Shown here piece after piece: positions 2,332 through 31,794 of a stretch of DNA of 49,064 nt. The translations under genes were made by a program, and so were the position numbers. Positions within the stretch are counted from its first letter, which is position 1; each line of letters begins with the position of its first letter. The notes below the pieces were generated by a model. It had not been told where the DNA came from. It worked only from the letters and a program-made list of their open reading frames with translations, and searched no databases. This DNA comes from Butyrivibrio sp. (GTDB lineage Bacteria > Bacillota > Clostridia > Lachnospirales > Lachnospiraceae), in the NCBI RefSeq assembly GCF_017940685.1, contig NZ_JAGAYD010000052.1, positions 1 through 49,064 of the forward strand, written 5' to 3'.

Positions 2332-3219
2332 GTGAAAAAGAAAAATACAGTTTTTAGAATTCTTGGAAGCATGTTCCTGCTTCTTTTTTCCATGTGTATA
2401 TTTCCTATTAAGGCTTCTGCTGACATTGGTGCGAAGCCTTCAATTTACATAAAACTCGTCAATGCTCCAGAGAATTGTTATGTGGCACTTCTTGATGACT
2501 GGAAAAATGAAGATGCGCCATATAATACAGAATTAAGGGATTTTGATCCTGAAAAAGAAACTATAGATGAGTATCTTGAAAACTTCTCTTATGAGAGATG
2601 GACGTATTTTACATCTTTCTGGGAGAACAATTACTATAAGCCCAATGAAAAAAACGCAGTAACTTTTGATTATGACGTTCCGGATCCTTTCAGGATAATT
2701 GTTATAGATGAGGCTGGACCCGTAAAGGTAAGCGAAGTTTTTGACCAAAGGGAGTTTAATGCCTCTATTACATATGACTATGCTGCAAATACCATAACTG
2801 AGCACTACGTGAGAAAGTCACTGTCCAGAATAATTCAGGTGCTGGGCTATTATCTTTTGACGTTGGTATTTGAATGGATAGTTTTCCTGCTCTTTAAGCT
2901 TCCAAGGAACAAAAGAAATATCATCAGCTTTTTTGTTGTCAATGCAATCACCAATATTCCATACAACATATTTAAAGTGTACTTCTTAAGCCGCGCTGGC
3001 TGGCCGGGACTTTTTATTGCAGGATTTTTGGAGATCATAATAATGATCTTCGAGGCCATTGTCTACAGCTTTGCCCTGGTTACAGATAAAGGAGAACCCG
3101 GGCCTAAATGTTTTTTCTATGGTATCGTAGCCAATATCTTTAGCGTTTTCATGGGAATCGTACTGGTGATTCCTTTTATGATGATTGATGAATTTATACA
3201 TGAAACTATTTTGCACTAA
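2332..3219 (+). CDS. Exported/membrane protein of unknown function
   Basis: 295 residues, GTG start behind a weak GGGG element. Residues 1-30 are a signal peptide or anchor: a KKK stretch, then a hydrophobic LGSMFLLLFSMCIFPI core with a possible AS-A cleavage site. Residues 31-160 are an extracytoplasmic domain rich in aromatic and acidic residues. From about 168 to the end there are four hydrophobic helices separated by short loops. I do not recognise the family. Placed 22 bases after the thioesterase gene, so probably in the same transcript. The topology resembles membrane sensors or assembly factors but no function can be assigned. Confidence 0.7.
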   Translation: MKKKNTVFRILGSMFLLLFSMCIFPIKASADIGAKPSIYIKLVNAPENCYVALLDDWKNEDAPYNTELRDFDPEKETIDEYLENFSYERWTYFTSFWENNYYKPNEKNAVTFDYDVPDPFRIIVIDEAGPVKVSEVFDQREFNASITYDYAANTITEHYVRKSLSRIIQVLGYYLLTLVFEWIVFLLFKLPRNKRNIISFFVVNAITNIPYNIFKVYFLSRAGWPGLFIAGFLEIIIMIFEAIVYSFALVTDKGEPGPKCFFYGIVANIFSVFMGIVLVIPFMMIDEFIHETILH

Positions 3220-3332: not shown

Positions 3333-4661
3333 ATGGAAACAGAATCAAGCGTTGTATATAAGATTGCTGACAGGGCGTCAGAGATAGGCCGTACACGATT
3401 TAGAATGCCAAGGAATATTTATTCCTGGTTATATGGGTTTGCACATCTTTCCTGTTATTCAAGAGGCAGGATAAATATAGAATTTCCGGAGGACGCCGAG
3501 GAAGTAGAAAAACAGTTAAGAAAGCTTTGTGCTTTCTTTTTAGCATGCAAAACACCACCCTTTAGTATCAAGATGAATATTGAAAAGGTTATAAGAGAAA
3601 AGAGATATGACCTTCTTCCCAAAATAACAGGAGAGCCGGAATCTGATATTTACATTAGAAACCAAAAGACCTTGATCCAGACAGATTTATATGATAAAGG
3701 GAATGGCTGGAACGCCTTTTTGGATGTTACTGAGCTGGTACAGTATCTTTGTGATAGAGCTAATGAGAATGGCAATTATTTCTTCAATCAGTTTACGTAT
3801 TGTAAGAATGCTATAGATGAAACGGATCCTAAGATTAAAGATCAGATTCAAAGGACCTGGGAAAACGATACGTTTACCAAAATTTTAAAAAATGAGGATT
3901 TTGATCCTCCACAGCCTGGAACAGATGAGTTTAAGGTTGTGACTGCGAATAGGATCATACCATTTTATTCAAGAACAATAGAAGTAGGTGCTGCTGACGA
4001 TGAAGATAGTACAATCTTGGACGTATATTATAATGCGCTTCTGGCCCATGAATTTATGTGGGACAGACTAAAGCGTGTGGCCCACCTTTTGGATTTATCT
4101 GATACCGAGGAGGCTTCTAAGAAAAGATATGATACTACCCTAAAGATATATAAGAATATGCTGTCAACAGAGTATGCCCGTGAAGAAGAAAAATATGCCA
4201 TACGCTATGAAATGGACAGCTTCATTAAGGATGAACATCGCGCCAAAAGCGCAGTCAAACAGATCCATGATGAATATTCGCTGGAAGATCTTAAGCAGGA
4301 TATTGCTGATGACATGCGGCTTGAGATGGATATTAAGCTTGAGAAGTTAAGGCTTGAAATAGAAAAAGAGTATAACAAGAAATACCGCGAGGACTTCTCA
4401 GGAATAGTCAGGGCAGAGATGGAAAAACTTTTACCTGATCTTTTCAAAGAGCAGGAAAAAGTTGATGACAAGCCCTATAAGGTATATACCACTTCCTCAT
4501 ATTCTTATCAGGAACAGCTTTTTGGATCTTATGACACATTTGAAGAAGCCAGTAGTGCAGCCTCTGGTTTTAATGACTACATGGAACAGATGCGAGGCGA
4601 ATACTGTTTTGATATGAAGGATTACCGGTCGGCTTATGTGGTGGGGCCAAAAGAAAAATAG
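3333..4661 (+). CDS. Unknown cytosolic protein with long coiled coil, first gene of HEPN-like operon
   Basis: 442 residues, no signal peptide or membrane segment. Residues 1-240 are a mixed alpha/beta region without a motif I know. Residues about 265-385 are charged and helical (EE, KK and RLEIEKEYNKKY patterns), reading as coiled coil. The last 55 residues, beginning YKVYTTSSYSYQEQLFGSYD, look like a small separate alpha/beta domain with alternating aromatic residues. A TGGAGGG ribosome site precedes the ATG. The next gene starts 18 bases after the stop, so this is probably the first member of a three-gene operon with two membrane HEPN-like proteins. It could be a scaffold or sensor for them, which is inference only. 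Confidence 0.7.
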   Translation: METESSVVYKIADRASEIGRTRFRMPRNIYSWLYGFAHLSCYSRGRINIEFPEDAEEVEKQLRKLCAFFLACKTPPFSIKMNIEKVIREKRYDLLPKITGEPESDIYIRNQKTLIQTDLYDKGNGWNAFLDVTELVQYLCDRANENGNYFFNQFTYCKNAIDETDPKIKDQIQRTWENDTFTKILKNEDFDPPQPGTDEFKVVTANRIIPFYSRTIEVGAADDEDSTILDVYYNALLAHEFMWDRLKRVAHLLDLSDTEEASKKRYDTTLKIYKNMLSTEYAREEEKYAIRYEMDSFIKDEHRAKSAVKQIHDEYSLEDLKQDIADDMRLEMDIKLEKLRLEIEKEYNKKYREDFSGIVRAEMEKLLPDLFKEQEKVDDKPYKVYTTSSYSYQEQLFGSYDTFEEASSAASGFNDYMEQMRGEYCFDMKDYRSAYVVGPKEK

Positions 4662-4679
4662 AGAGAGAAGACGAATAGT

Positions 4680-6314
4680 ATGAAAAATATACTTAAGGGT
4701 GATCAAAGATCAGATCAGAAATTTGAAGAACTGGCTACCAATGTGTTGGGATTTGAGGCAGCTATTGCATTTCTGCTTTTTATCCTGCTTGCTTTTATTG
4801 TTTTTTTGACGGGAGTGGCAAGTGCGGTTGAGGTATTGAAGGGCTGTGGGTGGTTTTTGCTGTTGCTTTTGGCAAATTTCATTTTTGCCATTATTTGTTT
4901 TGGCGTTATTTCTCTTATTACAGATTCATTTCCCGTAAAGCATGATCCTGATAGGGGCATTGTCAGAGAACTTGAGATATTTTATCCGGGGATCTCATTT
5001 TGGGCAGTGTTTACTACATGTGTTGTATTTCCCGCTTCCTTGTATGTAACCCTGTATAAGAGAAAGCTGTTTGACCTTAATGTTTTTGGTTATGTATTAG
5101 CAGCTATTTTTATTGTGTTTGTTATAGCTTTGCTGTGGTCTTTTCTTGATCTGCTTATTCTCTCTATAAAAATGCGATTTTACAAAGGCACCCTTTGCCT
5201 TTGTATAGACAGTAAGGGCCATGCTCCGTTTTATTCCAGGATGAATGGAGTTAGAGAGGGTATGCTATGCGTATCATTTTGGAAGTACAAAAAGCTCTTT
5301 TCCCATATGAAAGGAAAGGTTGTTAAAGAGCTTTGGATTCAGTCAGACTATCCAGATGACAAAGTGGAAAAAGAAGATTTTATAGCCCCAATAATTGATG
5401 AGTGCTTTGATAAGGGCATTTCAGTATTCAAGGTGAACATCGACAAATCAAAAGATATCAAAAAGGTCAGAATATCAAGGGTAATAATCAAGGCAGAGAC
5501 AGAGACCAAGACCAAGACAGAGCTTCATGACTTTACAGAGGCTGAAGGTGTAAGTTATTTTGGTCGCCTAAACTTTAATGTCATTACTGATTATTCAAAT
5601 GTACCTTTCCCTGTTCAGATGAAGTATGAATTCCCAAATCATGCTATATCTCTCATGAATGCTTCCAGGGAAAACAGTGAGATATTCTATCAGCTCATAA
5701 AGCTTGTGGAGTATGTGTTCCATTACATGGCTCTATATAAGCTTTCTGCTGACGAGGAGCTTAAAAAGAAATATATCCACGATGGATTTTTATCTTCTAT
5801 CGGTATGTGGCAGAACATTGCATTTGAAAAAGCAGGTAACAAAAAGACCTACCAGGCTGACAATCCTCAGGGAGAAAAAGTTCTTTCTGCCTTTAAGTTT
5901 GTCCATAAAGCTACTCTTGGAGCGGACTATGGAAGAGTAAGAGTAACCTACAACGAAATATGCAGCATTATCACAAGTGTCAGAAACAGATATCTTGGAC
6001 ACGGAACCATGGTGTTCTCTGTGACACAGGATCTTATTGATGCCTTCATTACCCTGGTGGGAGTTATCATGGAGGATTTCTATGGAAAAGATGTGGTTAT
6101 AGATGTTGATAAGGATGACGAAGATGGTGTGATCTTAGCCAGAAGCTTCTATGATCAAAAAGAAAAGCATTCATCATTGCAGCTAATATCCGCAATATCC
6201 AATGAAGGTGACACAAGGTATGTTGAGTACCTTGATTATAGAAATGGAAGCTGCGTTTGTGATACAGAAAAAGTATATGACCTTGATTATGCGTTTGAAG
6301 GTGAAAATTCATGA
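4680..6314 (+). CDS. Four-helix membrane protein with HEPN-like cytosolic domain
   Basis: 544 residues. Four hydrophobic helices lie near residues 27-47, 57-80, 103-123 and 131-160, and the rest is cytosolic. The C-terminal third contains a helix with R435-N436-x4-H441 (RNRYLGHG), which is the R-[ND/H]-x(3-5)-H signature of HEPN ribonuclease domains, flanked by long helices (LIKLVEYVFHYMALY before, DLIDAFITLVGVIMEDFY after). A short beta-rich tail follows. The downstream gene has the same layout and alignable positions in this region, for example N-x-A near the start of the domain and an S-R pair. Its stop overlaps the next start. HEPN is a motif-level call; the domain could be a structural, non-catalytic relative. 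Confidence 0.7.
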   Translation: MKNILKGDQRSDQKFEELATNVLGFEAAIAFLLFILLAFIVFLTGVASAVEVLKGCGWFLLLLLANFIFAIICFGVISLITDSFPVKHDPDRGIVRELEIFYPGISFWAVFTTCVVFPASLYVTLYKRKLFDLNVFGYVLAAIFIVFVIALLWSFLDLLILSIKMRFYKGTLCLCIDSKGHAPFYSRMNGVREGMLCVSFWKYKKLFSHMKGKVVKELWIQSDYPDDKVEKEDFIAPIIDECFDKGISVFKVNIDKSKDIKKVRISRVIIKAETETKTKTELHDFTEAEGVSYFGRLNFNVITDYSNVPFPVQMKYEFPNHAISLMNASRENSEIFYQLIKLVEYVFHYMALYKLSADEELKKKYIHDGFLSSIGMWQNIAFEKAGNKKTYQADNPQGEKVLSAFKFVHKATLGADYGRVRVTYNEICSIITSVRNRYLGHGTMVFSVTQDLIDAFITLVGVIMEDFYGKDVVIDVDKDDEDGVILARSFYDQKEKHSSLQLISAISNEGDTRYVEYLDYRNGSCVCDTEKVYDLDYAFEGENS

Positions 6315-7975
6315 AAAATAGTGAGCTGAAAAATAGAACTATAAAAAAGCTGAAAAATACAAATACTGCAACTTTAGTAGCTGCGATTTTCATTACTCTG
6401 ACTGTTGTCCTGAATTATAAATTTGGGGGAAGAGTTCAATTAACCTTTAAGGATATGTGTTTTTTCCTTATAACGGTTTGGGGAAGCTTTATCATTTATT
6501 ACGGTACGCAGCTTATTTCCCTTGAGCTGTATCACTCAAAACGTATGATCTTTTGGCAGGAAAAGGAAATGGCCCTGGATTACTTTTGTGGTGTAGTGAA
6601 TGGAGCATTTTTTACTGCTGTTTGGTCTGTTATTACGATGATAGCTGGCTTTTTTGTGCTGTCGGATGGTAATAGAGGACCATTTCATATTGTGCTTTTT
6701 GGTTTGTTATTATTTGTATCCCTTTATAAACTGATTGTATCTATGAAAGCCACAGGAAAGGTTCAGTATACTCTTGAAGATATTTACAGCAAAAGTGAAG
6801 ATGATATATCGTATCATACAAAGTGGGTGATGATCCCGGAAGAGGGGCAGGATATTGATTCTGATTTTGATTTTTCTTCTGGAGACATGGCTATTTCTCA
6901 AAATGATTATAACAAGCTTCTTCATAAGGATAAGGACAGTTTGGATGTCCTTAGAATGGCTAAAAACTGGTGCTTTTATGTTAAGACTGACGAGCAGGGC
7001 ACTTTGGAAGAAGTCTTAGACAGAGCTTATGATCTGTACTCCGGCATGGAGGATAAACACCTAATAAGGATCCTCATCTACGTTGCAAGAAGTGTTAAAA
7101 ACAAGCCACTTATTATTCCTGACAAGTATAGAAGGCTGGAGTTTATCATGGTTTATATGACATATGAATCTCCGGAATTTAGTCTTTCTCAGTTAAACAA
7201 CTGCCTCAGTGAAAGGACAGTTACAGATAATTCAGTTGATTATACCGTTGAACAGGCTTTTGGTAATGTGGATCTGTTGTTTAGTGAGATCGTACGCGAG
7301 AGCAAGCTTGACAGAAGTTTTTCTAATGGTTCATCCTGGCTTGTGGACTTTTACAACAATGCATGTGTGTTCGCAAATCCATCAAGATCTGTAATGGCCC
7401 TTATGGACTATTGTGAAATGCTCATTAAACTGTCTTCAATATACTGCTATCAGGCATGTGGACAAAATGGAATTGATCATATCGATGATAAGTTTTCAGA
7501 AATAGTCGGGAGTATTTATAACACTGGCAAAAAAGATAACGACTGGAGTGAGCGTTTATCTAAAAGGATACCTGTACCTTTTACCATAGGAAAAGCCATA
7601 AAGGAGTTCCAAAAGTATCTGTACATAAGATATGAAGGTGACAAAGTCAGCTTTAGAGGAGTTTTTAGCCTTCTTCAGACCATCAGGGATAAAGTGATTG
7701 CCCATGGTATCATGTCAAGTGAAAGTGCTCCTTATGTCTGGGCCATCATGATATGGATAACCATGTGCCTTAATTATTATCTTAGGGCAGGTGATATAAG
7801 GATTGACCAGAATGATGGCAAGTGCCTTGTGGGCTACAACGATAGTCTCTACGAGGATGAAGCAGTTATTTCTGACAAGGGATTTCCTTGTTTCGCCAGC
7901 ATTTCCACGGGTAATGGCAAGTATATGTTTGTAAATTATTACAATGGAGATAAGATCACTCCTAAATTTGTATGA
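6311..7975 (+). CDS. Four-helix membrane protein with HEPN-like domain, paralogue of the preceding gene
   Basis: 554 residues, with the ATG overlapping the previous stop (ATGA), so translation is probably coupled. Hydrophobic helices lie near 18-38, 47-70, 92-118 and 124-145. The C-terminal domain carries R459-D460-x4-H465 (RDKVIAHG) inside a helix, matching the R-[ND]-x4-H motif of the upstream protein. Both also share the segment N-x-A followed by N-x-S-R about 100 residues earlier, and a beta-rich tail (ISTGNGKYMFVNYYNGD here, ISNEGDTRYVEYLDYRNG there). The pair therefore arose by duplication and diverged strongly. A new promoter begins just after the stop, so the operon ends here. The function is unknown. 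Confidence 0.7.
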   Translation: MKNSELKNRTIKKLKNTNTATLVAAIFITLTVVLNYKFGGRVQLTFKDMCFFLITVWGSFIIYYGTQLISLELYHSKRMIFWQEKEMALDYFCGVVNGAFFTAVWSVITMIAGFFVLSDGNRGPFHIVLFGLLLFVSLYKLIVSMKATGKVQYTLEDIYSKSEDDISYHTKWVMIPEEGQDIDSDFDFSSGDMAISQNDYNKLLHKDKDSLDVLRMAKNWCFYVKTDEQGTLEEVLDRAYDLYSGMEDKHLIRILIYVARSVKNKPLIIPDKYRRLEFIMVYMTYESPEFSLSQLNNCLSERTVTDNSVDYTVEQAFGNVDLLFSEIVRESKLDRSFSNGSSWLVDFYNNACVFANPSRSVMALMDYCEMLIKLSSIYCYQACGQNGIDHIDDKFSEIVGSIYNTGKKDNDWSERLSKRIPVPFTIGKAIKEFQKYLYIRYEGDKVSFRGVFSLLQTIRDKVIAHGIMSSESAPYVWAIMIWITMCLNYYLRAGDIRIDQNDGKCLVGYNDSLYEDEAVISDKGFPCFASISTGNGKYMFVNYYNGDKITPKFV

Positions 7976-8004: not shown

Positions 8005-8042
8005 GAATTATAGTTTAATCAAAAGCTATGGGGGATAGGGAT

Positions 8043-8663
8043 TTGATAGCGTATGTAAACGGAATTCTTGAGTATATTGAGGAAGGACTATGTGTGGTTG
8101 ATGTTGGAGGAATAGGCATGAATGTCTTTATTTCCGGATCTACCATGGACAGGATGCCTGGAATTGGTGAGCCTGTTAAGCTCTATACCTATACCAATGT
8201 CAAGGAAGATGCATTTAACCTTTTTGGATTTCTTTCAAGGGATGAGCTGTCTCTTTTCAAAATGCTGATAACGGTAAGCGGAATCGGACCCAAGGGAGGC
8301 CTCTCCATCCTGTCAGTGATGACTCCTGATGACCTTAGATTCGCCATTATGGCTGGAGATTCCAAGTCTATATCTGCAGCTCCCGGAATCGGTAAAAAGA
8401 CTGCAGAGAGGATCACTTTGGAGCTTCGCGACAAGATCAAGGTATCTGAGGATGATATGCTAAGGGGCCCTTCTGCTGTTACAGCAGACGACCTTACAGG
8501 AGAAGCTTCTTCAGCCAGAGACGAGGCTGTAGCAGCTCTTGTAGCCCTTGGATACAACAGCACTGATGCCATGAAGGCTGTCAGGAAGGTGCTTAAAGCC
8601 AATGAGGATGCAGCTTCTGATACAGAGGCGCTGCTTAAACTGGCACTTAAAGAGATGTTCTAA
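8043..8663 (+). CDS. ruvA: Holliday junction branch migration protein RuvA
   Basis: 206 residues from a TTG start. I prefer TTG at 8043 over the ATG at 8028 because RuvA proteins begin M-I-x-x-x-x-G (here LIAYVNG) and a GGGGGATAGGG ribosome site lies just before it. Domain I is the OB fold, which includes NVKEDAFNLFGF. The two helix-hairpin-helix motifs are at SGIGPKGG and PGIGKKTAERI. A flexible acidic linker follows, then the C-terminal RuvB-binding helices (ARDEAVAALVALGYN). RuvA tetramers hold the four-way junction and load RuvB. It is cotranscribed with ruvB and under SOS control by the upstream LexA box. Confidence 0.97.
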   Translation: MIAYVNGILEYIEEGLCVVDVGGIGMNVFISGSTMDRMPGIGEPVKLYTYTNVKEDAFNLFGFLSRDELSLFKMLITVSGIGPKGGLSILSVMTPDDLRFAIMAGDSKSISAAPGIGKKTAERITLELRDKIKVSEDDMLRGPSAVTADDLTGEASSARDEAVAALVALGYNSTDAMKAVRKVLKANEDAASDTEALLKLALKEMF

Positions 8664-8684
8664 GGGCTAATATAGAGGATGACT

Positions 8685-9716
8685 ATGGAAAAGAGAACCA
8701 TTAAGACCACGGCCAGAGGGCTGGACGCAGAGGCTAATACAGAGGACGTCAAGATTGAAGGATCCCTTCGCCCCAAGAGCCTTGACAATTACATAGGTCA
8801 AAAGAAGATCAAGGAGAGTCTTGAGATTTATATAGAGGCTGCCAAGAAGAGGGGAGAGAGCCTGGATCACCTGCTTTTTTACGGACCACCCGGACTTGGT
8901 AAGACAACACTGGCTTCAATTATTGCTGCTGAGATGGGGGTTAATATCAAGATTACCTCTGGCCCGGCTATAGAGAAACCTGGAGATATGGCAGCTATCT
9001 TAAATAACCTCAAGGAAGGCGATGTTTTGTTTGTTGATGAGATCCACAGACTTAACCGTCAGGTTGAAGAGGTTTTATACCCTGCAATGGAGGACTTTGC
9101 CATTGATATCATGATAGGTAAGGGACCTACAGCCAGATCAATAAGACTTGATCTTCCAAGATTTACCCTTATTGGAGCTACAACAAGGGCAGGTATGCTG
9201 TCAGCGCCTCTTCGTGACAGATTTGGAATGATCCACAGGATGGAGTTTTACGAGATTGACGAGCTGTGCAGCATCATCATGCAGTCAGCCAAGGTCTTGA
9301 ACGTAGAAGTTGATAAAAAAGGCGCAATTGAGATGGCGCGCAGGAGCCGCGGAACGCCTCGTCTTGCCAACAGGATACTTAAGAGAGTAAGGGACTTTGC
9401 CCAGGTTCGATTTGATGGCAGGATCACTGAGGATGTGGCTGTAACAGCCCTTGATCTTATGGATGTAGATAAAATGGGTCTTGATCACACAGACAGAAAC
9501 CTTCTTATGACCATGATAGGTAAGTTTTCAGGAGGACCTGTGGGACTTGATACTTTAGCAGCTGCCATAGGAGAAGATGCAGGTACAATTGAGGACGTTT
9601 ATGAACCATATCTTATCAAAAACGGATTCATAAACAGAACCCCAAGAGGCCGCGTAGTTACTGATGCTGCATATCACCATTTAGGGCTTGAAATGCCCAC
9701 TGATAGCGGTATATAA
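8685..9716 (+). CDS. ruvB: Holliday junction branch migration helicase RuvB
   Basis: 343 residues. The AAA+ ATPase shows Walker [10 protein letters not shown], Walker B FVDEIHR, sensor 1 in LIGATTRAG and the arginine-finger segment PLRDRFG. The winged-helix C-terminal domain ends in TPRGRVVT. RuvB hexamers drive branch migration with RuvA. The AGAGG at 8674-8678 fits the second in-frame ATG (8685) with a 6-base gap better than the ATG at 8679. It begins about 20 bases after ruvA in the same operon. Confidence 0.97.
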
Positions 9717-21123: not shown

Positions 21124-22671
21124 ATGACCACTGTTATTATTGCAGTAGTAGCAACTCTTGTCATCACAGCTCTCATTACCTGGGTTTTAGCATCAAACTA
21201 CCACAAGAAGGTGGCTGATGGTAAGATCGGTAGTGCTGAGGAGAGGGCAAGAAAGATTATTGACGAGGCACTCAAGACTGCTGAAGATACAAAGCGTGAG
21301 AAACTTTTGGAAGTTAAGGAAGAGTCACTTAAGACACGTAATGATCTTGAAAAAGAAGTCAAGGATCGCAGAAATGAGATGCAGCGTGCAGAGAGACGTA
21401 TTCAGCAGAAAGAGGAAAACGTCGAGAAGAGATCCGAAGCGATCGAGAGAAGAGAGCAGAGTTTAAGTGCCCGCGAGGAAAACTTAAACAAGAAGACTGA
21501 AGAGGTTGCTAAGTTAAATGAACAGAGGCTACAGGAACTTGAAAAAATCTCTGGCTTAACCTCCGAGCAGGCTAAAGAGTATCTTTTAAAGATCGTTGAA
21601 GATGATGTGAAGCATGAGTCAGCTATCATGATCAAGAACATGGAAGCTGAGGCGAAAGAAGAAGCAGATAAGAGAGCCAAGGAAATTGTTGTAGGTGCTA
21701 TCCAGCGCTGTGCAGCAGATCACGTTTCCGAGACTACAATATCTGTAGTTCAGCTCCCCAATGATGAGATGAAGGGTCGTATCATTGGTAGAGAAGGTCG
21801 TAACATTAGGACCCTTGAGACAATGACAGGTGTTGACCTTATCATTGACGATACACCTGAGGCAGTAGTTATTTCCGGATTCGATCCAATCCGTAGAGAG
21901 GTTGCCCGTATAGCTCTTGAGAAGCTTATTGTAGACGGACGTATCCATCCAGCTAGGATTGAGGAGATGGTTGAGAAGGCTCAGAAGGAAGTAGCTGCCA
22001 AGATCAAGGAGGAAGGTGAGAACGCTGCTATTGAAGCTGGTGTTCACGGTCTTCATCCTGAAGTTATCAAGATCCTTGGTCGTATGATGTTTAGAACAAG
22101 CTATGGACAGAACTGTCTTAAGCATTCTGTAGAAGTTGCACAGTTGTGCGGACTTATGGCATCAGAGCTTGGACTTGACGTAAGAGTAGCTAAGAGAGCT
22201 GGTCTCTTACATGATATCGGTAAGGCTGTTGACCATGAGCTTGAGGGCTCACACATTCAGCTTGGTGTAGATATCTGTAGGAAGTACAAGGAATCACAGG
22301 TAGTTATCAATGCAGTTGAGGCTCATCACGGCGATGTAGAGCCACAGTCACTTATAGCAGTTCTTGTACAGGCTGCTGATACAATTTCATCAGCAAGACC
22401 TGGTGCTAGAAGAGAGACTCTTGAAACTTACACATCAAGATTAAAAGAACTCGAGGACATCACTAATAGCTTTAAGGGTGTTGATCACTCATTTGCTATT
22501 CAGGCTGGTAGAGAAGTCAGAGTAATGGTTGTTCCTGAGCAGGTTACAGATGAAGATATGGTAATTATGGCTCGCGATATTGCCAAGAAGATCGAGGACG
22601 AGATGGAATATCCCGGACAGATCAAGGTCAATATCATCAGAGAGAGCAGAGCAACAGATTACGCTAAGTAA
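21124..22671 (+). CDS. rny: Ribonuclease Y
   Basis: 515 residues, the standard length. One N-terminal membrane helix (2-24), a long coiled coil (about 35-200), a KH RNA-binding domain ([15 protein letters not shown]) and an HD domain with [12 protein letters not shown] and EAHHGDVEP. RNase Y starts mRNA decay by endonuclease cuts at the membrane and scaffolds the degradosome. AAGGAGGT lies 9 bases before ATG 21124. It has its own promoter and terminator and so is monocistronic. Confidence 0.97.
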
Positions 22672-30708: not shown

Positions 30709-31794
30709 ATGAAACTTGTTTCAGTAGACAAGCTTGAACCAGGACTTGTAGTATCCGAAAATATCTATACCCTTGATGACAGACTGGTTTTGCCTAAGGG
30801 GACTATTCTTGATGAAAAGGATATCGAAAGGATACGTTCCTATTCTTTATACAATATCTTTGTAGAGGAAGAGAAAAAGCCTGTTGTCCCAAAACAGGAA
30901 AAAGCTGATTCCGCTAGTCTTTCCTACTCTGAAAAACTCAAAAACACAGAGGAATTCATCAGGTTTAAACAGCATATTGAAGACAACGCTGAAAAGCTTG
31001 AAGAGTCATTCAGGCTCCTTGCCAACGATTCTATTCCTCTTGATGTAGATAAACTAACTGAGCCTGTATATCATCTGTTCGTAGAGGCTGGTGGAACAGC
31101 GGGAGTGTTTGATATGCTCCATAACCTCAGGGACAGCAGCGATGAAGTCTATATGCACAGCCTTAATGTTTCACTTATTTCCAATACACTTGCAACATGG
31201 ATGAGACTTCCAAATAGCAAGATCCAGCTGGCAACTGCAGCAGGGCTTTTACATGATATTGGAAAGGTTTTGATGCCTCCAGAGCTTCTTGGTAAAAACA
31301 AGCAGCTTACTGACTATGAGCAGAGAACCATGAATGAGCACGTAATTAAGGGGTATGAGCTTGTAAAGGACAAGGATATTAATACCCATATTAAAAATGC
31401 CATCATTATGCATCATGAGAGAAGGGATGGCTCAGGTTTCCCATTCCATCTAAAAAATGATCAGATAGATGAGATAGCTTCTATTGTGGCAGTGGCAGAT
31501 GTTTATGATTCCCTTACCACCAGAAAAAAATACAGGGAACCGATCTGTCCGTTCTATGTTATCCAGCAGTTTGAAAACGAGGGACTTGATAAGTATGACC
31601 CTAATACCATACTTACTTTCCTTAGCAATATTGTTAATACCTTTATTGCCAACAGGGTTATGTTAAGTAATGGTATGACTGGTGAGATAATCTTTGTTAA
31701 TCCAGAGCATCTTGCAAAACCTGTGGTAAAGTGCGGAGAAAAGTATATTGATCTTGTGAAAAATAAAGGACTTTCCATAGTTGCACTGGTGTGA
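30709..31794 (+). CDS. HD-GYP domain protein
   Basis: 361 residues. The N-terminal 55 residues (DKLEPGLVVSENIYTLDD) are the same small domain as in the HD-GYP protein at 15383. A charged linker and helical region follow. The catalytic domain has H150, H182-D183 (LLHDIGK), H211, H235-H236 and GSGFP (GYP position reads GFP, 243-245), with ADVYDSLT after. Metal ligands appear intact, so phosphodiesterase activity on c-di-GMP is plausible; the GYP Tyr is changed to Phe. The C-terminal region (NGMTGEIIFVNPEHL) also matches the other copy, so the two are paralogues. Confidence 0.9.
   Translation: MKLVSVDKLEPGLVVSENIYTLDDRLVLPKGTILDEKDIERIRSYSLYNIFVEEEKKPVVPKQEKADSASLSYSEKLKNTEEFIRFKQHIEDNAEKLEESFRLLANDSIPLDVDKLTEPVYHLFVEAGGTAGVFDMLHNLRDSSDEVYMHSLNVSLISNTLATWMRLPNSKIQLATAAGLLHDIGKVLMPPELLGKNKQLTDYEQRTMNEHVIKGYELVKDKDINTHIKNAIIMHHERRDGSGFPFHLKNDQIDEIASIVAVADVYDSLTTRKKYREPICPFYVIQQFENEGLDKYDPNTILTFLSNIVNTFIANRVMLSNGMTGEIIFVNPEHLAKPVVKCGEKYIDLVKNKGLSIVALV

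Follow-up and report, generated by a model that had tools for sequence, protein, structure and literature searches.

What is the function of two membrane proteins, here called B and C, that are encoded side by side in a contig of Butyrivibrio sp. (RefSeq assembly GCF_017940685.1, contig NZ_JAGAYD010000052.1, positions 1 to 49,064)? This whole stretch of 49,064 nucleotides is referred to below as the window. A first-pass annotation, made from the sequence alone, had proposed a membrane-bound HEPN pair that might be a stress- or phage-triggered RNA cutter. Our analysis bears this out in part: the C-terminal domains of both proteins are likely HEPN domains, while the defence role is conjectural. 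At a probability of about 0.5, we favour the reading that B and C together make up an HEPN ribonuclease that is anchored in the membrane and probably a heterodimer; it would be Csm6-like in action and in several genomes probably work with a CorA-like effector. That B-C is a membrane-anchored paired ribonuclease is probable; that it is a signal-gated immune effector, acting like Csm6 and together with CorA-like proteins, is plausible.

The HEPN-like domains of B and C

The open reading frames (ORFs) agree with the adjacent, overlapping genes of 544 and 554 residues described before, and the overlap amounts to four bases. Directly downstream are ruvA-ruvB (8028-9716), as we presume from their sequences. 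The features of the two genes are as follows.

4680..6314, + strand: gene B (ATG start, 544 aa), with four predicted membrane helices, a Rossmann-like domain, an HEPN-like domain and a beta tail
4752..5180, + strand: N-terminal part of B (residues 25-167) with four predicted membrane helices (H25-45, H49-83, H105-126 and H134-167 in the model; hydropathy)
5184..5489, + strand: alpha/beta domain of Rossmann-like fold in B (residues 169-270), which may sense a ligand (model with block pLDDT of about 44-67; PDB matches)
5613..6086, + strand: B residues 312-469, HEPN-like helical bundle (model; PDB matches to 4nqf, MtlR-type and Csm6 chains)
5709..5711, + strand: B E344, conserved upstream acid of E-x3-H
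5982..6002, + strand: B R435-N-R-Y-L-G-H441 (R-N-x4-H), predicted catalytic motif, from R[ND]x4HG conservation
6183..6278, + strand: beta tail of B (residues 502-533), with a similar one in C (low-confidence model; profile-profile alignment)
6311..7975, + strand: gene C (ATG start, 554 aa), with membrane helices, a middle region, an HEPN-like domain and a tail
6356..6745, + strand: C residues 16-145, predicted N-terminal membrane helices (three segments over the hydropathy threshold)
7334..7795, + strand: HEPN-like domain of C (residues 342-495), assigned from its homology to B
7415..7417, + strand: C E369, upstream acid of E-x3-K
7685..7705, + strand: C R459-D-K-V-I-A-H465 (R-D-x4-H), predicted catalytic motif, from R[ND]x4HG conservation

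Both motifs lie where they had been reported, at residues 435-441 of B and 459-465 of C. Taken alone they are weak evidence, since R[NDH]x4H also occurs in 738 of 20,000 shuffles of B, in 715 of 20,000 of C and in 4 of the 35 window genes examined. The motif becomes significant because it is present in all 12 homologous domains, where R[ND]x4HG is conserved with the R, the H and the following G invariant; the N after R is replaced by D in window C only. The R and H, whose loss among homologues had been named as grounds for abandoning the idea, are thus kept in 12/12 domains. An acidic residue is also found upstream of R, as E-x3-H in B (80-91 residues before it, 6/6) and as E/D-x3-[K/R] in C (89-121 residues, 6/6; five E, one D), although these are loose patterns with other matches in some stretches, for which the aligned column was chosen. 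HEPN families are defined by Rx4-6H with a polar residue after R, and many, but not all, have an upstream acid, typically in Ex3[KR] (PMC3710099; here and below, statements on cited papers refer to the sections available to us). R-x4-6-H with a polar residue after R is found in 12/12 B and C domains.

By BLASTP the two window proteins resemble each other weakly (E 0.019, a single comparison). Profile-profile comparison aligned them colinearly over 166 columns (probability 63.8, P 6.7e-5) with a score of 37.7 versus a maximum of 23.9 in 100 column-shuffled controls. Their earlier description as paralogues therefore holds for the C-terminal ~190 residues, and the beta-rich tails that had been called similar are part of the alignment, the tail of B being modelled with low confidence. 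In a tree, all B sequences group in one clade and all C sequences in another, both with 100/100 support; inside these clades, 7 of 9 inner branches are unresolved. Two specialised subunits have thus been retained together. B and C are old paralogues that have stayed paired, each with a complete motif.

A structure model of B lends support, weak as the model is, to HEPN and Rossmann folds in this protein. The blocks holding E344 and R435 have predicted local distance difference test (pLDDT) values of 78 and 73. When the model was compared with the PDB, Csm6 chains occupied ranks 2 and 3 and four more rows among the 50 matches listed. Six of these 50 matches are confined to B residues 303-477, namely the HEPN protein 4nqf, three Csm6 chains, MtlR and YggD, which we take to be MtlR-like. 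Three further Csm6 rows among the 50 cover B residues 166-473. The model of B residues 169-270 matches Rossmann-like folds in the PDB, with the three longer Csm6 rows extending through the HEPN region too, and this domain may be CARF-like and a candidate ligand sensor. A hydropathy scan with a threshold of 1.6 gave four early membrane segments in B and three in C (16-34, 93-111 and 127-145). Four N-terminal helices had been claimed for both proteins; they are predicted for B by model and hydropathy, while in C three segments pass the threshold and a fourth is presumed.

A probably mobile two-gene unit and its neighbours

Homologues were counted outside the window's own genome, in family, genus, order and phylum samples that partly overlap. 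For B, the yield was 1 of 298 family genomes, none of the 79 other genus genomes (1/80 with the window's own) and, with profile A1, 0 of 391 order genomes; a combined B/C profile found nothing in 397 phylum genomes. When 84,980 species genomes were scanned for RNxYxGHGTM, six stretches came up, four of them with B-C pairs: Lachnospiraceae RGIG4733 (L004), Butyrivibrio NALB_7823_4 (L005), an Oscillospiraceae metagenome-assembled genome (MAG; L007) and a Clostridiales MAG (L008). This census undercounts, because the pattern demanded Thr-Met after His-Gly; a second pair in the L008 genome (G699), with RNKYLGHGS, was recovered by profile search only. Six pairs, including that of the window, are thus known from five genomes (the window's, G695, G696, G698 and, twice, G699), and B and C are adjacent and in identical order in 6/6 loci. 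The C gene on contig 101 of G699 is broken. In the second pair of the Clostridiales genome (L018:7667-11318, + strand) B seems to be split or late-starting (440 aa), with a hydrophobic ORF of 145 aa just upstream. Pattern-based protein scans with P0001 or A1 gave no relatives in genome contigs, viral contigs or plasmids, and the motif pattern had 0 matches in viral contigs.

The remaining two of the six stretches (L006 and L009, both Bacteroidales) encode another kind of protein, in which the motif is combined with an NTPase domain. These proteins were rejected as relatives of B, since only 16 columns round the motif align by profile and a search of their genomes with profile A4 missed them. 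They carry an N-terminal RN-x4-HGTM and a later NTPase-like domain (L006:3166-7999, with weak NACHT and Avs2 matches, and L009:3-2869), and each adjoins a CorA-like two-helix protein on the opposite strand, possibly another pairing of HEPN with CorA. The CorA-like protein of L006, P0018, is a weak match (PADLOC E 2.5e-4), and the profile of protein D, introduced below, aligns with P0018/P0020 over 22 columns (P 0.019).

At the window locus, the two genes are present or absent as one unit:

4662..7972, + strand: two-gene unit B+C between gene 3333-4661 and ruvA, present here and cleanly missing in sibling genome G328

In sibling G328, which has no B-C, the flanking genes and ruvAB match those of the window; its DNA aligns at about 86% up to window position 4648 and resumes from 7973. 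The best direct repeat at the two ends of the unit is 9 bases long, and no mobile-element gene was seen beside B-C. Gain of a clean two-gene unit is a simpler reading than loss elsewhere, because none of the 79 other genus genomes carries B. The clean absence in siblings and the sparse distribution fit horizontally moving accessory genes. Sibling G331 lacks B-C and also gene 3333-4661, whose product P0003 (442 aa) has no family match over cut-off. This joint absence suggested P0003 as a third member of the unit, which was rejected because G328 has P0003 without B-C and G373 has only its tail (the C-terminal ~80 residues). P0003 is an older gene of this locus; it occurs at full length in 2 of 80 genus genomes, and its C-terminal part has a weak match within another protein of G357.

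A CorA-like protein, or a DHH-type protein with two transmembrane segments, adjoins or lies one gene away from 4 of the 6 pairs. In G696 (order B-C-D) and G698 (D-B-C) this is protein D, whose C-terminal part holds two hydrophobic segments. In G695, directly upstream of B, and on contig 101 of G699, as the second gene after C and past a gene that we presume to be DUF421-like, it is a larger protein that has a DHH-like region at its N-terminus. The two larger proteins share DHH at 42-44 (P0009 numbering), H83, P86-D87 and D89, with Pfam DHH matches below cut-off (E 0.018 and 0.014), and their C-terminal end resembles that of D over 136 columns (P 9.2e-5); neither was recovered with the D profile A10, and the window's genome may therefore hold a DHH-type partner elsewhere. 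Both (L003:6880-8988, + strand; L019:4156-6633, - strand) appear to join a DHH-type region at the N-terminus to a CorA-like C-terminus with two helices. Their DHH element precedes the H-x2-P-D-x-D element, an order that looks swapped relative to that of usual DHH enzymes. PADLOC CorA matches were obtained for P0012 (2e-14), P0025 (1.5e-8) and P0026 (1.6e-25), P0009 aligns with P0026, and all four proteins have two C-terminal hydrophobic segments. The partner proteins thus show the CorA-like profile, P0009 by alignment, and the two C-terminal membrane helices of the CorA proteins of type III CRISPR.

The G699 pair on contig 232 has no CorA-like neighbour up to the contig end. The window's genome has a D-like gene on contig 115 (E 2.5e-22), adjoining a DUF3800-like protein (L060:6727-10343, - strand), and in G698 a similar-looking protein adjoins D. 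The name DUF3800 is our assumption from an LDExGDFE motif in these proteins (P0027 and P0028), which have no such Pfam match and resemble each other weakly (blastp E 0.001 over 152 columns). Near the Butyrivibrio B-C-D locus, a CHAT-domain protein (L016:3836-6511, + strand; Pfam E 2.3e-51, near the G696 pair) converges on D, and a small protein (L016:12793-13350, - strand) without a Pfam match over cut-off has an HSHP motif, presumably like that of JAB peptidases. The survey of neighbours suggested earlier thus brought out CorA-like and DHH-type company in other genomes, but no classical defence gene was recognised at the window.

Proposed action and rival explanations

In the model of B, a Rossmann-like domain followed by an HEPN-like domain with R-x4-6-H would resemble the layout of Csm6/Csx1, ribonucleases of type III CRISPR loci with Cas10 in which a Rossmann-type CARF domain is fused to HEPN. 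In contrast to these, B-C has four N-terminal membrane helices and two distinct subunits, no Cas10 over cut-off was found in its genome, the pair has no PADLOC match and ligand binding is presumed. PADLOC includes models of Csm6/Csx1. The lack of Cas10 and of a profile match lowers the probability that B-C is a Csm6, not that it works like one. Cas13 has two HEPN domains in one chain, and B and C, as two differing HEPN domains, would likewise build one composite active site; however, they are separate membrane proteins, and no guide-RNA machinery was noticed beside them.

Three membrane groups of bacterial HEPN proteins have been described by Anantharaman et al. (2013), with one helix and the WP signature (DUF4145), with one helix and an Abi2/SWT1 HEPN domain, and with an N-terminal HEPN domain followed by two helices and a Zn ribbon (PMC3710099). 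B and C share with them a cytoplasmic HEPN domain on a membrane protein, but differ in their four helices, in the alpha/beta domain and in the C-terminal position of the HEPN-like domain, and they come as a pair in 6/6 loci. The helix number and domain order of B fit none of the three groups as given in the sections available. In type III CRISPR, SAM-AMP (S-adenosylmethionine-AMP) gates CorA and is degraded by NrN phosphodiesterases or lyases (PMC12255297), and some CorA proteins accompany, or are fused to, the CARF-HEPN enzyme Csm6-2 (PMC11229360). The HEPN-like B-C similarly go with CorA-like proteins, two of which have a DHH-type domain, although their loci have no Cas10 over cut-off and the HEPN proteins are membrane proteins from two genes. 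No four-helix membrane HEPN pair is described in the parts of the open-licence PMC literature that were searched, which does not prove absence from print. If our reading is right, some HEPN ribonucleases are membrane pairs encoded by two genes and equipped with a sensor domain, and stand outside the three membrane groups of PMC3710099.

The membrane helices would anchor each protein and leave the middle region, Rossmann-like in the model of B, in the cytoplasm. Each C-terminal HEPN-like domain would give one R-[N/D]-x4-H half-site, the half-sites joining as in other HEPN dimers. RNA cleavage by HEPN enzymes is metal-independent. We infer in this way a heterodimer, a ligand, RNA cleavage and a role in defence: the pair would act as a membrane-tethered Csm6, in several genomes probably together with a CorA-like membrane effector. 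Since the CorA-like and DHH-type proteins found repeatedly near the pairs are similar to those of the SAM-AMP branch of type III CRISPR, the same effector arm may be in use outside CRISPR, which poses the question where its signal would come from. A more far-reaching proposal, which as a whole is doubtful, is a Cas10-independent second-messenger immunity in which B-C and the CorA-like effector respond to one nucleotide ligand; a separate synthase would make this ligand and the DHH-type phosphodiesterase, sometimes fused to the CorA-like effector, would clear it. If true, the effector arm of type III CRISPR would be at work without CRISPR.

A number of results weigh against our reading. The model of B is weak (mean pLDDT 57.5, predicted TM-score 0.42), H441 falls in a stretch with pLDDT under 50, and the model covers B, the HEPN-like domain of C being assigned by homology. 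All Z scores of the PDB matches are under 8, values that helical bundles reach by chance according to a warning of the search tool, and the three Csm6 rows across both B domains have root-mean-square deviations of 14-15. The upstream acid motif of B is E-x3-H, not E-x3-[K/R]. Neither B nor C has a match over cut-off in Pfam, PADLOC or NCBIfam (best NCBIfam match hisF, E 0.16), nor do their relatives P0013 and P0024 in PADLOC; the best of ten weak Pfam families for B/C members is not HEPN, and HEPN_AbiU2 (E 0.074) and Ribonuc_2-5A (E 0.082) each appear below cut-off in 1/12 members. P0009 has no PADLOC CorA match. Beside the window pair there is neither a CorA-like neighbour nor a recognised classical defence gene, and the D-like gene of that genome stands on a different contig, whose end truncates it. 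Of the two checks proposed earlier for the HEPN assignment, structure prediction gave an HEPN-like bundle with HEPN-type matches, but at low model confidence, and the profile search gave no HEPN match over a cut-off: no HEPN family passed that of Pfam, the PDB matches by sequence profile (4 and 1) were at chance level and none was HEPN, and PHROGs gave nothing better than E 0.024 for the B/C families. There is only a very small chance that the domains are some other kind of helical bundle in which R-[ND]-x4-H arose by coincidence, as the motif and the upstream acid are conserved in both subfamilies and the six bundle-confined matches among the 50 listed are HEPN-type.

Membrane helices with cytoplasmic HEPN-like domains would also suit an envelope-stress regulator, in which the helices would respond to a signal from the cell surface or membrane and the HEPN pair would trim specific transcripts, like Ire1 in eukaryotes, without any part in phage defence. 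Such a role has been proposed for other bacterial membrane HEPN proteins (PMC3710099), and no defence gene was recognised beside the window copy. The very sparse distribution (1/80 genus genomes) and clean sibling absence would be unusual for a housekeeping regulator, and the CorA-like partners at other loci point to conflict systems; we consider this explanation unlikely. The PADLOC CorA matches near several pairs, and the D-like gene on another contig of the window's genome, would also be expected if the HEPN-like domains were non-catalytic and bound RNA or a ligand while the CorA-like membrane partner killed. This is rather improbable, as R, N/D and H in 12/12 domains favour catalysis and no CorA-like neighbour was seen for the pairs of the window and of contig 232 in G699. 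The same residues, retained in all six copies of each protein, speak against a toxin and antidote, in which one protein would be the RNase and its paralogue would keep it inactive by heterodimerisation, since loss of the active site would be expected in an antidote. Two old paralogues in adjacent overlapping genes, likely expressed as a single unit, would agree with such an arrangement, to which we give a slim chance.

Searches for Cas10 and minor observations

Over the Cmr2 or Csm1 cut-off, Cas10 was found in 0 of 7 genomes, which are drafts. Matches below cut-off occurred in 2/7 (Cmr2) and 5/7 (Csm1) genomes. The majority fall on the N-terminal part of Csm1; a match on contig 72 of G698 falls on the C-terminal part of Cmr2 (E 7.6e-6). 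Among the control genomes giving any match, the cut-offs were reached in only 1/4 (Cmr2) and 3/7 (Csm1). Because of these sub-cut-off matches and the few controls reaching the cut-offs, the genomes may carry a divergent Cas10-like enzyme.

HEPN/MNT toxin-antitoxin pairs have an adjacent MNT nucleotidyltransferase. Among the neighbours of B-C, the two upstream ones at 3333-4661 and 2332-3219, which the Pfam scan covered, have no family over cut-off. Elsewhere in the window, sub-cut-off matches to the N-terminal part of Csm1 were found at 22198-22494 and 31234-31536 (E 3e-9 and 4e-5). They sit in the ORFs 21124-22671 and 30709-31794, which are probably HD-type hydrolases rather than Cas10.

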